Assembly (NCBI GenBank): GCA_014764485.1 | Contig: JACXWA010000120.1 | Coordinates: 1 to 50,652 of the forward strand | Source of the DNA: Candidatus Sulfomarinibacter kjeldsenii | GTDB lineage: Bacteria; Acidobacteriota; Thermoanaerobaculia; Thermoanaerobaculales; Sulfomarinibacteraceae | DNA: 50,652 bases | Direction: 5' to 3' | Shown here: one piece after another, positions 15,917-21,701 of the stretch | Position numbering within the stretch: the stretch's first letter is position 1 | Layout of the letters: every line of letters begins with the position of its first letter | Translations under genes and position numbers: made by a program | The notes under the pieces: model-generated | The model's database searches: none | Told to the model about the DNA's origin: nothing | What the model saw: only the letters and a program-made list of their open reading frames with translations

Positions 15917-16065
15917 CCAAAAACCTCCACTCAGAGTATAGATGACGGCGGATCGGCAGTGTCCCCAGCAGTGGACATCATTTCGTTGGTTGACCACCGA
16001 CTGTCGCAGTGAATCACGGGTCAAGCGTGGCACGATCCTTGCGAGTTTGTTGGGCGGAGGCCGAA

Positions 16066-16989
16066 ATGCGCGAGAGAAAGACTGAATTAGGCGCGATTGG
16101 GCTGGTGGTTCTGATGATGGCTGTGGCCCCGTTGCCGATCGAGGCGCAGCTCGCTGCGGACTGGATGGTTCCGGCGGCGGCTCACAATCGCGGATCGCAG
16201 GACAGCTTCTGGAAAACGGACCTCTCGCTGCATAATCCGCATGAGTTTGACCTCCCGGTCGTGATTCAGGCACTTCCTAGCGACACGGTCAATCTCGAGG
16301 TCCCGACCCTGACATTCACTATCTATCCGTGGGAGACGATCAACTTGTGGGACGTGCTTGGTCCGGATGTCTTTGACGTGGATGGCACAGCGGCCATCAT
16401 CGCGTATGCCGATCCGGCGCTGCGGTGTGATCCGATCGAGGATTGCCATTTTCTGGTGACATCGCGCACCTATACCCCCGAGAAGGGCGGCGATGGTGAG
16501 TATGGTCTGACGGTGCCCGGCGCAGCGATATCGAGCGCCACTGATTGGTCTACCTTTGGTTATGCGGCTGGCGTGCTCAACGATGGTGACTACTTCAGGT
16601 GCAATGCCGGTGTCGCGTCCTGGACACCCGACTGGACCAGGGTGCGCCTCGATATCCAGGATTCCGACGGTCAGATCGTGAGCAGCGAGGTTTTCGACCT
16701 GCCGCCGTACGGCCATGTTCAGCGCCGCCTGGCGACATCCGGGTATGGGGGCTCTCTCGTTTTCTACCTCGAGTCAGGGCCCGATGACGCCTCGGTCTTT
16801 CCCTATGCAACGGTGATCAACCAGCGGACCGGAGATTCGAGCTACCTCTTCGCCTCATCTTCGGCGGTCGGTGTTTCGGTTGCGAAAAATCTCGGATCCA
16901 TCGGTGGCCGTCCCGGGGGTCCGTCGGCCTCGACGCGAGTTGTCACACCGGTGCGCAGAGGTCGGAAACCGGCCCACCGTCTGAAATAA
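16066..16989 (+). CDS. Secreted hypothetical protein
   Basis: ATG at 16066; signal peptide LGAIGLVVLMMAVAPLPIEAQ; WMVPAAAHNRGSQDSFWKTDLSLHNPHEFDLPVVIQALPS (beta-rich). Confidence 0.7.
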   Translation: MRERKTELGAIGLVVLMMAVAPLPIEAQLAADWMVPAAAHNRGSQDSFWKTDLSLHNPHEFDLPVVIQALPSDTVNLEVPTLTFTIYPWETINLWDVLGPDVFDVDGTAAIIAYADPALRCDPIEDCHFLVTSRTYTPEKGGDGEYGLTVPGAAISSATDWSTFGYAAGVLNDGDYFRCNAGVASWTPDWTRVRLDIQDSDGQIVSSEVFDLPPYGHVQRRLATSGYGGSLVFYLESGPDDASVFPYATVINQRTGDSSYLFASSSAVGVSVAKNLGSIGGRPGGPSASTRVVTPVRRGRKPAHRLK

Positions 16990-17054: not shown

Positions 17055-19256
17055 ATGGTCCAGTTCGACAACCAGCACCGCCAGATCAAGATCAAGATCG
17101 TCTATTACGGCCCCGCCGTGGGCGGCAAGACGACCTGTCTTCAGCACCTGCACCGGGTCACAGATCCCCAAAATCGGACCAAGCTCTACTCCTTGAATAC
17201 TGCAACCGATCGCACCCTGTTCTTTGATCTCCTGTCGTTGAACCTCGGAAGGATCCGAGGTTTTCGCCTGGCCCTTCAGCTCTACACGGTTCCGGGTCAA
17301 GTCCAGTACGACGCGACCCGCCGCACGGTGCTTGCAGGTGCTGACGGGGTGGTCTTTGTTGCCGATTCCCAGGTCGCACAACGCGAAGCCAATCTCGAAT
17401 CTCTCGAGAATCTGTGGGTCAACATGGCCGCCAACGGTCTCGATCAGAAGACTGTGCCGGTCGTCCTGCAATACAACAAAAGGGATCTCGACCCGATCCT
17501 GACGGTCGAGGAGATGGAGGCGGCCCTCAACGGCGATGGCCGGCCGGCCTTCCCGACCGTTGCGATTTCCGGTGAGGGAGTGTTCGAGGCTTTTGCGGCA
17601 ATCGGCGAGCACACACTGGCTTCGGTGGCCGACAAGCTCGGGGTTGGCACCAGCCCGCAGGCGGTTGAACGTCTCCAAGAGCAGATGCACAAGGCCGTAC
17701 AGCCCTTCATGGACGAGGATGGCGAGGCGCCGCCCACCAACGAGGATACTGTGGTCACGGTCACTGGGCCTGAAATCGAGGCCGGGCAGGTCCTGAGCGA
17801 AGACCTGCTGATCGGTGAGGCGGTCCGGGCAAACCTGGCTATAACTGACGTCACGACCCGCCTCGATATTGTCAGCCGGCAGCTCAAGCGCAAGGTGCGG
17901 GTGATGGACAGCATCTCCCTGTTCGGTCATGCGGTGAGTAATCAACGCGATCCCGCCAAGGTATTACGTCTGCTCATCACTGAAGCGATTCGCCTGCTCC
18001 AGCTGCAAGGGGCCTCAGTGATCATCATTCCCGGTGGTGGACGTGTTCGAGAAGCGGTGGTCCACGGATTTAAACAGGATCCACTGCTATACGCCGCAGA
18101 CTCAACCGGAGGGTCGGTCGCGACCGCGCTGCTCAACGAACGCAAGCCTCGGCTCTTCGTGCGAGAGGCTGAAGAAGAAAACGACGAAGCCGCTGTGGCC
18201 GCGGTCGATGGTGCGGGATTTACGTCTGCGCTTGCGGTACCCATGATGACCCAGGAGAAAGTGGTCGGATTGCTGACTGCGTACGGCGACAACGAGCGAG
18301 CCGACCTCGACGAAGACGACTTGCAGCTTGCCACAGTTCTCGCTTCCACCGCAGCCATGGGATACGCCAACGCTATAGCCTGGCGGCAGATGGAAGACTT
18401 CAACAAGGGGTTGGAAGCCAAGGTCGAGGAGCGGGCGGGTGAGCTCAAAAGAAGTCTCGTCGAGTCCCGCCGCCTCGCCACCGACCTCGAGGAAAAGAAA
18501 AACCTCCTCGAGACCGCCTATCGTGATCTCGAGGCGCTCGATGAGGTCAAAAACGAACTGATCAATCGACTGTCGCTCGATCTTCGGACGCCGGTCACCT
18601 CACTCTTCACTGCCGCCAAGATCGTTCGCCGCGAAAAGGAGGTGTCTCCGGAAAAGGCCGAGCGGCTTTTGAACATCATCTACGATGAGGGTAAAAAGCT
18701 CATGGAGATTGTCCAAAATGTATTCCAGGCATCGGTGATTGCCGCTGGCGCGCGGGATCTCGAGCGAAGATCCGTGCCACCACAGGATCTTTTCCGCAAC
18801 GCGATCTCACCCCTCCGTGATCTCGCCGCGGACCACGATGTGCGCATACAGGTCCTCATTCCGAGCGGTCTGGAGACGATTTCTTGTGAGCCGGAGAGCG
18901 CTGAAGCAGCGTTGCGGGCGGTGATCAAGAACGGCATTGAGTTCAGTAGTGGTGGAGAGGTGAAGCTCGAGGTGCGGCGGGCCACGTACGACGGGGACCC
19001 ATGGTTGCAGCTGCGGGTGAGCGATTCGGGATCTGGAATTTCGGAAGAAGATCTTGCGCACGTTTTCGAGGCCTTCTGGCAAGGTGACGATTCGAATGCG
19101 GGGAAACGCCATGGAATCGGGCTCGGTCTTACAATTGCCAAAAGGGTTGTGGAGAATCATGGCGGCACCATCGTCGTCGAAAGGGGAGCGAGTGGGGGCA
19201 CCGAGGTTGTGATGTCCCTGCCACAGGAAGTGGTGCAGGATACGGCGCCGGCCTGA
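17055..19256 (+). CDS. MglA-type Ras-like GTPase + GAF-like region + histidine-kinase-like (HATPase) fusion, H-box His missing
   Basis: 733 aa; YYGPAVGGKTTCLQHLH, TDRTLFFDLLSLNLGRIRGFRLALQLYTVPGQVQYDATRRTVLAGADGVVFVADSQ, QYNKRD; then a GAF-like region; KNELINRLSLDLRTPVTSL (SHELRTPL with H->L), N-box VIKNGIEFS, DSGSG, GIGLGLTIAKRVVENHGG. Confidence 0.9.
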   Translation: MVQFDNQHRQIKIKIVYYGPAVGGKTTCLQHLHRVTDPQNRTKLYSLNTATDRTLFFDLLSLNLGRIRGFRLALQLYTVPGQVQYDATRRTVLAGADGVVFVADSQVAQREANLESLENLWVNMAANGLDQKTVPVVLQYNKRDLDPILTVEEMEAALNGDGRPAFPTVAISGEGVFEAFAAIGEHTLASVADKLGVGTSPQAVERLQEQMHKAVQPFMDEDGEAPPTNEDTVVTVTGPEIEAGQVLSEDLLIGEAVRANLAITDVTTRLDIVSRQLKRKVRVMDSISLFGHAVSNQRDPAKVLRLLITEAIRLLQLQGASVIIIPGGGRVREAVVHGFKQDPLLYAADSTGGSVATALLNERKPRLFVREAEEENDEAAVAAVDGAGFTSALAVPMMTQEKVVGLLTAYGDNERADLDEDDLQLATVLASTAAMGYANAIAWRQMEDFNKGLEAKVEERAGELKRSLVESRRLATDLEEKKNLLETAYRDLEALDEVKNELINRLSLDLRTPVTSLFTAAKIVRREKEVSPEKAERLLNIIYDEGKKLMEIVQNVFQASVIAAGARDLERRSVPPQDLFRNAISPLRDLAADHDVRIQVLIPSGLETISCEPESAEAALRAVIKNGIEFSSGGEVKLEVRRATYDGDPWLQLRVSDSGSGISEEDLAHVFEAFWQGDDSNAGKRHGIGLGLTIAKRVVENHGGTIVVERGASGGTEVVMSLPQEVVQDTAPA

Positions 19257-19317: not shown

Positions 19318-20694
19318 CTAAGACGAAAGGGCTTCCTCGTCAAACGTGTCCGCGACTTCACGAGCGGCGTCGGCGGCCAGAGCAAGGGCCGTCGGTGAAG
19401 CAATCTCGAGCATCGTCTCGGCTCCTCCAGGAATCGTCGACGGCCAGGTTGCCGCGGTCGACAGACACTCCCTGCCGAGGTGGAGGCAGACGCCAAGTGG
19501 TGTCGGCGAGCGTGGGTCCAACACCCTGCGGATCTCGGACGGAAAGTCGGCGAGGTGTGCGAGTCTCGAACCGACCCGCCGCGACAGATGCTCGAGCAAG
19601 GTCTTTCGCAGGCGCTGGTGCGGGACTGGAAGGGAAGTGAGGGCCCAGAGCACGAGGTCCGTTGGCACGGTCACGAGGTGAACTGCCAATGACGCGGTTT
19701 CAGGGGCCACATCGAGGTGTGGCGCAGCGGCCGCAGCCGTCTGTGACCAGGCGGCTACCACCTGCTGAATGAGTTCGTCCAGCTTTGCTGCTTTGGGACG
19801 TTTCAGAAAACCACTGCCGATCATTTCTTCCCACAGGTTGAGATCGGTTGCAATCGTCTCGAGCTCGGCGAGAGATAACGGCCCCGGATGGGTGTGGTTG
19901 CGAACCGTACAGGCGAGCACCATCTGGTTCCACGCAGCGTGGGGCCGTCCCGGCAGATAAAACGGCAGCTCGTTTTCGGAAGCCGCGAGCAAACCTTCGA
20001 TCTGCCCAGCCGGCAGAGGAACCAGGCCGGGGCTCGAGGACAGCCACTGTGAGAGCGTAGTGACGATGTCGCGCACCAAGTCGTGGAGACGGCTCAACTG
20101 GTTGCCATCGATTGCATCCTCTTCCGCTACCCCATCTCGAATCATCTGCCAGAAGAGGTCTTCGAACGCCTCGCCAGTAAAAGCGAGTTCATACGAACGT
20201 CGCTTCGCTTCGCCCGGCACATCCTCATCGGACCGACGCGCGGCCTCCATCAGAAGATGACTCGGCTCGACATTGAGGCTGAGTCCGAGAATGTCGAGGA
20301 CCGGGTGGTTGGGAATGAACTCGAAGCTGACTTCGGGTGATATCAAGATCCGGCTGGTAATGGCTTCGGCAAGATCGGTGAGGCTCGCCTGGAGGTCCTC
20401 TGGTGAGACTCGGCCCTCGCCAATGAGAAGGTCCGTGAAGAGGGCACGGCGGACCATCGAAGTGGCGAGGATACGGCGAAGCTCGCCGAGCGGAATCAGA
20501 CTGCGCCGGGTGAGCCAGGTGGCGAGCCTCTCCTCGGGGATCGTCGAAGAGGCGTAGCAGACCCGACCGTCGATGAAATCGAGCCGGCGCTCACCGCGAG
20601 TGTCTTTCAGAACCAGGCGTCCACTGACGCCACCCATCTGAAACCACTGCAGGAGGTCTCCAAAATGGAGACGGTCGAGGTTTCCCTTGATCAT
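19318..20694 (-). CDS. DUF4388 (PATAN-like) domain protein
   Basis: Start M at 20694: MIKGNLDRLHFGDLLQWFQMGGVSGRLVLKDTRGERRLDFIDGRVCYASSTIPEERLATWL. Confidence 0.8.
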   Translation of the reverse strand: MIKGNLDRLHFGDLLQWFQMGGVSGRLVLKDTRGERRLDFIDGRVCYASSTIPEERLATWLTRRSLIPLGELRRILATSMVRRALFTDLLIGEGRVSPEDLQASLTDLAEAITSRILISPEVSFEFIPNHPVLDILGLSLNVEPSHLLMEAARRSDEDVPGEAKRRSYELAFTGEAFEDLFWQMIRDGVAEEDAIDGNQLSRLHDLVRDIVTTLSQWLSSSPGLVPLPAGQIEGLLAASENELPFYLPGRPHAAWNQMVLACTVRNHTHPGPLSLAELETIATDLNLWEEMIGSGFLKRPKAAKLDELIQQVVAAWSQTAAAAAPHLDVAPETASLAVHLVTVPTDLVLWALTSLPVPHQRLRKTLLEHLSRRVGSRLAHLADFPSEIRRVLDPRSPTPLGVCLHLGRECLSTAATWPSTIPGGAETMLEIASPTALALAADAAREVADTFDEEALSS

Positions 20695-20834
20695 CGCCCC
20701 AGTATACCGGCTTACGAGCCTAAGCCGAATATGAGACGCGACCGAGTTGCGAGCGCCCCGGCACGCACCTCGTGCTTGGACAGGCTTTGAGCAGTGGTAG
20801 GAGATATCGGGAGAGGTTGCGCTACCATCTGTGG

Positions 20835-21701
20835 ATGCGTCTCCTGCTCTTGAGTGCTCGTCCAGATCTTCGTACAAACACTCGGTTCGCCGAAGCGGCG
20901 AACGATCTTGGAATCGACCTCGGGTTGGTCGACGGGATCACCGCTTCGGCGTCACTCATCGATGGCAATCTGAAACCGTTGGGAGTCGAGATCGATCGCG
21001 AACTCCCCGACGCTGTCCTCGCGCGGGTCGGTAACTGGCGGCCCGAGAGCTTGCTCGCGGTCCTCGAGGCGTTTGTCGCATGCGGCGTGGCGACGCCCAA
21101 CCCTCCCGCCGCTATCAGAATGGGCCGCGATCATTGGGCAACCACGATGGCCCTGACTGTAGCCGGTCTGCCGGTGCCGCCAACCCTTGCCGGCGCCGAC
21201 CCGGAGGCATTGGCAGCAGAGACCGTTCGTAGCCTTGGACTACCGGCGGTTGTGAAACAGAGGCGGTCGCGGATGGGCGTCGGAGTCATTCGGTGCGCCA
21301 CCCGCGATCATCTCGAGGCGATCCTCGACTCATTGTGGCGGATCGGTGACGAAATCGTCGTCCAGCGATGGCTGGCCGGAGGCGAGCACAGTCTCCGTTT
21401 GATGGTGGTCGGAGGGTCGGTTGTCGCTGCGGCGCGTTTCAGCGCTGCCAAAGGCGAATGGCGGTCCAACTCTGCCCGAGGGGGATCTGCCGAGGCCCAT
21501 GACGCGTCACCTGACGAGAAGAGGCTTGCCGTTGCCGCAGCGGCGGCACTCGGTCTCGGCCACTGCGGTGTGGACCTGGTGGGCAGTGAGGCGGGGCCGG
21601 TGATCCTTGAGATCAACCCCACGCCGGGATTTCTGCGCCTCGAAGAGGCGACAGGTATTGATGTCGCGCGTGCTCTGGTTGAGCACGCAGTTGCCAGATA
21701 A
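20835..21701 (+). CDS. ATP-grasp (RimK-like) ligase family protein
   Basis: MRLLLLSARPDLRTNTRFAEAANDLGIDLGLVDGI...GLPAVVKQRRSRMGVGVIRC...VVQRWLAGGEHSLRLMVVGGSVVAAARF...CGVDLVGSEAGPVILEINPTPGFLRLEEATGIDVARALVEH. Confidence 0.85.
   Translation: MRLLLLSARPDLRTNTRFAEAANDLGIDLGLVDGITASASLIDGNLKPLGVEIDRELPDAVLARVGNWRPESLLAVLEAFVACGVATPNPPAAIRMGRDHWATTMALTVAGLPVPPTLAGADPEALAAETVRSLGLPAVVKQRRSRMGVGVIRCATRDHLEAILDSLWRIGDEIVVQRWLAGGEHSLRLMVVGGSVVAAARFSAAKGEWRSNSARGGSAEAHDASPDEKRLAVAAAAALGLGHCGVDLVGSEAGPVILEINPTPGFLRLEEATGIDVARALVEHAVAR

Follow-up and report, generated by a model that had tools for sequence, protein, structure and literature searches.

Pseudo-histidine kinases are known mainly through single cases, such as DivL of Caulobacter. 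DivL has a histidine-kinase core with a recognisable H-box and conserved N and G boxes in which the acceptor residue is replaced. The replacing residue is Tyr550, with Ala in one homolog, and DivL works without kinase activity and binds ATP poorly; its Y550H variant failed to recover autonomous activity (PMC4211667). It carries PAS sensors and no GTPase, and is still tied to the receiver DivK. MglA proteins of Group 1, as in Myxococcus xanthus and T. thermophilus, are single-domain GTPases that signal via separate partners, namely RomR, FrzS, AglZ and MglB. The actinobacterial conservons (AGPS; CvnA-D) combine a histidine-kinase-like protein with an MglA-type GTPase and a GAF protein that modulates the kinase (PMC13343842, PMC4316618). 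The components are separate proteins, including CvnB (MglB) and CvnC, and in CvnA8 the His (H183) is present and in use (PMC13343842). We found no description of an MglA-histidine-kinase fusion in the open-access literature searched.

We analysed a stretch of 50,652 nucleotides (the window) from a draft genome, 67% complete, that belongs to the order Thermoanaerobaculales (Acidobacteriota). On its forward strand, where all domains and motifs described here also lie, an open reading frame with an ATG start (17055..19256) encodes a 733-aa MglA-GAF-DHp-CA protein, a pseudo-histidine kinase. The fusion of an MglA GTPase to GAF and HisKA/HATPase modules proposed in the initial annotation was borne out by matches to MglA structures in the PDB and by Pfam, which assigned, all above cut-offs, an Arf-type GTPase (residues 10-160), GAF (298-435), HisKA (499-560) and HATPase_c (616-725). 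Likewise, the motifs listed there, Walker A GPAVGGKTT, LYTVPGQVQYDATRR, NKRD, DSGSG and GIGLGL, are all present. The GTPase domain (residues 1-200, 17055..17654) matches MglA in the PDB (E about 1e-59) and in Foldseek (6izw, TMt 0.86). Its residues 7-190 align with M. xanthus MglA (5ymx/6hjh, E about 1e-59) in identical register, with 53% identity to the Myxococcus protein in the structure alignment and about 41-54% to the Group 1 proteins of M. xanthus and T. thermophilus. Because the register is the same, Arg53 (17211..17213) and Gln82 (17298..17300) sit on the catalytic residues of MglA. These residues, together with the P-loop GKT of the Walker A/G1 motif (residues 19-27, 17109..17135), the TVPGQ switch of G3 and NKxD, give the domain the hallmarks of Group 1; unlike the stand-alone members of that group, the GTPase of the window is covalently joined to a GAF-DHp-CA sensor/kinase module.

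Downstream of the GTPase, a first signalling helix or coiled coil (residues 249-295, 17799..17939), delineated from AF2 secondary structure, leads into the GAF domain (296-440, 17940..18374; Pfam GAF_2, E 2.9e-12). An S-helix coiled coil (441-494, 18375..18536) then runs into the DHp domain (495-562, 18537..18740; HisKA, E 1.8e-7), which is followed by the catalytic, ATP-binding CA domain (572-725, 18768..19229; HATPase_c, E 1.1e-22). The AF2 model, built on 30 sequences, reproduces this order (MglA, helix 249-295, GAF, a continuous helix 420-526, DHp hairpin and CA fold) with a mean pLDDT of 77.9 and a pTM of 0.37, at which the relative placement of the domains is unreliable. The modelled domains match structures of MglA, HK853 and DivL in Foldseek. 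The CA domain has the N, G1 and G2 boxes of a HisKA sensor kinase, and the acceptor His is missing. In a gapless alignment with T. maritima HK853, as in the ortholog column, Leu508 (CTC, 18576..18578) stands opposite His260, confirming the His-to-Leu replacement first noticed in the H-box. The N-box, described initially as intact, is not quite so: Asn626 is present, but the Lys that follows in HK853 (K383) is replaced by Glu629 here.

On these features, we read the protein as DivL-like in logic, not in ancestry. Among the systems described above, DivL is closest in logic and the conservons are closest in ingredients. The match to DivL (4q20_B, TMt 0.77) is one of many comparable matches to histidine kinases, and membership of the DivL family by ancestry was rejected, GAF and MglA standing in place of PAS. 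Conservon membership was rejected as well, with no adjacent cvnB (MglB), cvnC or cvnD around the window gene or its relatives. By full-length colinearity and tree placement, the protein belongs to an MglA-GAF-HK fusion family of Acidobacteriota that we define here.

The absence of the His is an evolutionary loss that extends through the genus. Full-length orthologs are carried by nearly all genomes of the window's family (f1) and of its sister family Thermoanaerobaculaceae (f2, which includes Thermoanaerobaculum), those of f2 sharing 43-46% identity with the window protein over the full length. Five genomes of the window's genus were sampled, and their residues at the acceptor column are L, L, L, S and L. 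Elsewhere in f1, this column holds Ser in genus g5, Ala in g6, Ala, Ser and Ala in g3, and Asp and Asn in g9, and in g7 it is missing with the rest of the H-box; the His is kept in g2, g8 and g10, so that 13 of 16 f1 orthologs lack it. In f2, 15 of 16 retain it, with Ser in genome G030 as the only aligned exception. Other histidine kinases of the window's genome keep their His (10/10 distinct ones inspected). A sequencing error or recent point mutation, a concern raised when the CTC codon was first noted, is ruled out because orthologs across the genus (5/5) lack the His. It had also been stated that orthologs with His, combined with evidence of an error, would undo the claim; some of the more distant orthologs do have His, but the window's own genus does not, so there is no error.

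We then gathered related MglA-[GAF]-HK proteins from other Acidobacteriota, and this census, which the initial annotation had called for, reached 62 aligned proteins, 38 with the His and 24 without. On a maximum-likelihood tree made without the H-box columns, there are at least six changes at the acceptor, or seven if they are counted as losses only. Because the AU test does not reject one loss at the base of f1 (p 0.063), we conclude that the His disappeared on at least five separate occasions, and on 6-7 according to the best tree. The independent losses counted are those in f1, G030 within f2, f46, f33/f49, and f78 with L065, tree support being weak for the nearest neighbour of G030 and for the placing of some long branches. 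The residues found in place of the His across these lineages are L, S, A, D, N, T, E, Q and G. Genome G190 has two paralogs (L219/L223), one without the His (SGDMGTP) and the other with it and with Gln at +1 (SHQIITP).

What selection keeps after the loss can be read directly from this family. In the 38 proteins with His, from f2 and other Acidobacteriota, which are orthologous or of the same architecture, Glu at H+1 and Thr or Ser at H+4 are invariant (38/38 each). Among the 24 without it, E/D persists at H+1 in 18 and Thr at H+4 in 7, the remainder having K, E, N, G, P or I. The ATP-site residues Asn626, Asp657, Gly659 and Gly661 are nevertheless retained in 23 of these 24, HATPase_c E-values are equally strong in both groups, and the MglA residues K25, T26, R53, Q82, N141, K142 and D144 (NKxD) are retained in 62/62. 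The ratio of DHp to CA divergence is 0.68 in f2 and 1.05 in the His-less f1 proteins, while the CA/MglA ratio is unchanged (1.71 and 1.77, respectively), and the most closely related His-less pairs give a CA dN/dS of about 0.1-0.4, several of them with saturated dS. Judging from these divergence ratios, the CA dN/dS and the near-complete ATP site, the phosphotransfer chemistry is gone from the His-less proteins and the ATP pocket is retained. The Lys after the N-box is replaced by Glu or Asp in almost every protein of f1 and f2, those with His included, and is retained in the other families with His; the His-bearing relatives in the order may therefore be atypical kinases.

The same comparison bears on several other readings of the protein. 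The kinase module as a whole could be drifting towards a pseudogene, with MglA alone of importance. DHp divergence is indeed raised relative to CA, the GAF domain and H-box are gone in G010, and the ATP boxes too are gone in L065/L226, but reading frames are full-length throughout, the ATP boxes persist in all but one of the His-less proteins, and CA dN/dS stays far below 1 between the nearest relatives. We regard such decay as very unlikely, and for the window's genus the pseudogene reading was rejected on these grounds. Still less credible is that another DHp residue, for example Ser507 or Asp509, is phosphorylated instead and the protein is still an autokinase: Ser507 is retained in the genus and other acceptors are used by some kinase-like proteins, yet there is no common replacement residue, and the neighbours of the His column vary too.

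A loss of kinase activity alone is somewhat easier to accommodate. The DHp domain could bind a stand-alone receiver encoded elsewhere and dephosphorylate it via Asp509/Thr512; ATP/ADP bound to the CA domain would serve as the cofactor, and MglA or GAF would do the regulating. Several bifunctional kinases retain phosphatase activity after substitution of the His, and all five members of the window's genus retain D/E at H+1 and Thr at H+4. Such a role, which the initial annotation had raised as an alternative, is thus possible for lineages with Thr at H+4, including the window's genus, but not for most other His-less proteins, and because most of them have lost this Thr, it is no function common to the group. 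Moreover, no receiver gene adjoins the window gene. Overall, we consider this reading unlikely.

The surroundings of the gene differ between the two families. A co-directional gene for a putative secreted protein without a Pfam family (cluster c1), located upstream of the window gene (16009..16989, forward strand), is the most constant neighbour in f1 and f2. In f2, an operon-like row consists of the secreted-protein gene, REC-HK, MglA-GAF-HK, in some genomes a GAF-SpoIIE PP2C gene, a single-domain REC and RimK (row members at L159:1567-2715, L159:4888-6405 and L157:933-1319); its REC-HisKA-HATPase kinase has 383 aa and a canonical SHEIRTP. Within this row, a Ras-like GTPase comes together with two kinases, a PP2C and a receiver in an uncharacterised four-part signalling system. 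The f1 gene still has the secreted-protein gene upstream, but REC-HK and REC are gone from the row, and a convergent gene with a DUF4388/PATAN domain follows. This gene, which in the window lies at 19318..20877 on the reverse strand (DUF4388, E 3.4e-18; cluster c6), adjoins the MglA-HK gene across f1. REC-HK was absent from every f1 genome searched. Genera g6 and g9 still have a REC of the f2-row type elsewhere, beside a PP2C gene, so there the receiver was unlinked rather than lost. The deepest f1 member, G005, has both the His and a REC next door. Conversely, G030 is alone within f2 in lacking the His and alone in lacking both REC-HK and REC; its row is closed up from the secreted protein to MglA-HK to RimK, and this 82%-complete genome has no ortholog of REC-HK or REC elsewhere.

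Across the 62 proteins, the His is missing only where no response-regulator gene lies nearby. A REC lies within 3 kb of 32 genes whose products have the His and of none without it; where there is no REC within 3 kb, 6 proteins have the His and 24 lack it. Fisher's test gives p 6e-12 but ignores the relatedness of the proteins, and an independent-pairs test finds three concordant and no opposite pairs, too few for significance, so we do not take the Fisher value as proof. Single REC absences are softer at G004, G008 and G011 (upstream) and at G016 and G200 (downstream) because contigs end there less than 1 kb from the gene. Receiver genes adjoin the His-bearing MglA-GAF-HK genes of f2, f20, f23, f41 and f76, and the later loci G240 and G213, with His and an adjoining REC, fit the association. 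G223 has the His and no REC within the 10.5 kb examined. The His-bearing copy in G190 with Gln at +1 has an HK and REC pair divergently upstream. Genomes G011 and G013 and family f31, in which the REC is absent and the His kept, suggest that the partner was lost first and the His later. Given the six His-bearing proteins without a REC in cis and the receivers elsewhere in g6 and g9, a receiver may act in trans for the His-less proteins. The family differs from DivL in that its His disappeared where there is no receiver gene, and in that its CA domain was kept.

The neighbourhood also informs on whether the protein could work as half of a heterodimer with another histidine kinase, either with its CA domain phosphorylating the partner's His or with the protein blocking that partner. 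The sister-family gene is encoded next to REC-HK, the window's genome has many other kinases with His, and the CA domain is as well conserved relative to MglA as in the His-bearing relatives. On the other hand, f1 has no adjacent HK gene, the REC-HK partner is missing from all its genomes, and DHp interfaces usually discriminate against heterodimers. This arrangement seems to us quite unlikely.

We favour, as moderately probable, a scenario in which the kinase was cut off from phosphotransfer once its receiver had become unlinked and is now an ATP-binding dimeric scaffold around the MglA switch. The ancestor would have been a working MglA-GAF-histidine kinase whose gene lay next to that of its receiver. 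Once the genes for the receiver and the partner kinase had become unlinked or had disappeared, decay would have reached first the acceptor His and later the nearby chemistry residues (Glu+1, Thr+4), with the GTPase, GAF and ATP-binding CA domains remaining under selection. The DHp domain and coiled coils would hold the dimer, and the dimeric DHp-CA part would act as an ATP-dependent allosteric scaffold whose conformation or dimer state is set by the GAF ligand and by ATP/ADP in the CA domain. That state would in turn control the access of the MglA domain to GTP, MglB or effectors, the kinase part probably being a nucleotide-sensing regulator of the GTPase. The MglA domain would be the output, and a standalone MglB the likely GAP that switches it off; on contig C40 of the window's genome, one MglB homolog (Robl_LC7) adjoins a separate single-domain MglA. 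ATP binding, GTP hydrolysis and their coupling in the window protein are predicted from motifs, and the poor ATP binding of DivL, the analogue studied best, counts against the scenario. The initial proposal of a pseudokinase, linked to a GTPase and possibly switched by it, that would retain ATP binding without canonical autophosphorylation is supported by the orthologs, tree, selection, structure and neighbourhood. We take PATAN and DUF4388 to be the same domain. The convergent DUF4388 neighbour is a candidate partner, as PATAN proteins have been reported near MglA and MglB genes (PMC4316618), although convergent genes form no operon.

The MglA-GAF-HK pseudo-kinase is real, conserved and repeatedly evolved, and the kinds of protein that it combines, pseudo-histidine kinases and MglA GTPases, are already known. 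Repeated loss beside relatives that keep the His is an unusual natural experiment, in which acceptor loss can be set against the presence of a partner gene, and in which the ATP site and the GTPase are seen to be what selection keeps. A single chain joining a Ras-like switch and a kinase core also makes their cross-talk testable, a question that arises too for MglA/Frz in Myxococcus and for the actinobacterial conservons. More tentatively, and a little short of what we would call probable, MglA-fused kinase cores may have turned at least five times independently into ATP-dependent allosteric GTPase regulators, each without a receiver in cis. If true, evolution would have a repeatable path that leads, within a single polypeptide, from two-component signalling to signalling by a G protein.

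Histidine-kinase modules may have decayed in MglA fusions beyond this family as well. Other fusions of about 500-640 aa occur in Vicinamibacteria and other Acidobacteria (L068-L076 and L078) and in Acanthopleuribacter-like genomes (L079, L087 and L109); in the members aligned (L068, L079, L087 and L109) the C-terminus is kinase-like but degenerate, and neither an H-box nor a G2 box can be recognised. The window's genome (G000) itself encodes two more MglA fusions, one of 938 aa with a long Pro/Glu-rich repeat region (L140, contig C19) and one of 471 aa with an acidic linker (L139, contig C80). In genome G010 of genus g7, a 534-aa ortholog (L138, 2392-3993) lacks the GAF domain and H-box; with its HATPase and GTPase motifs intact, it represents a minimal two-nucleotide protein of GTPase and ATPase.
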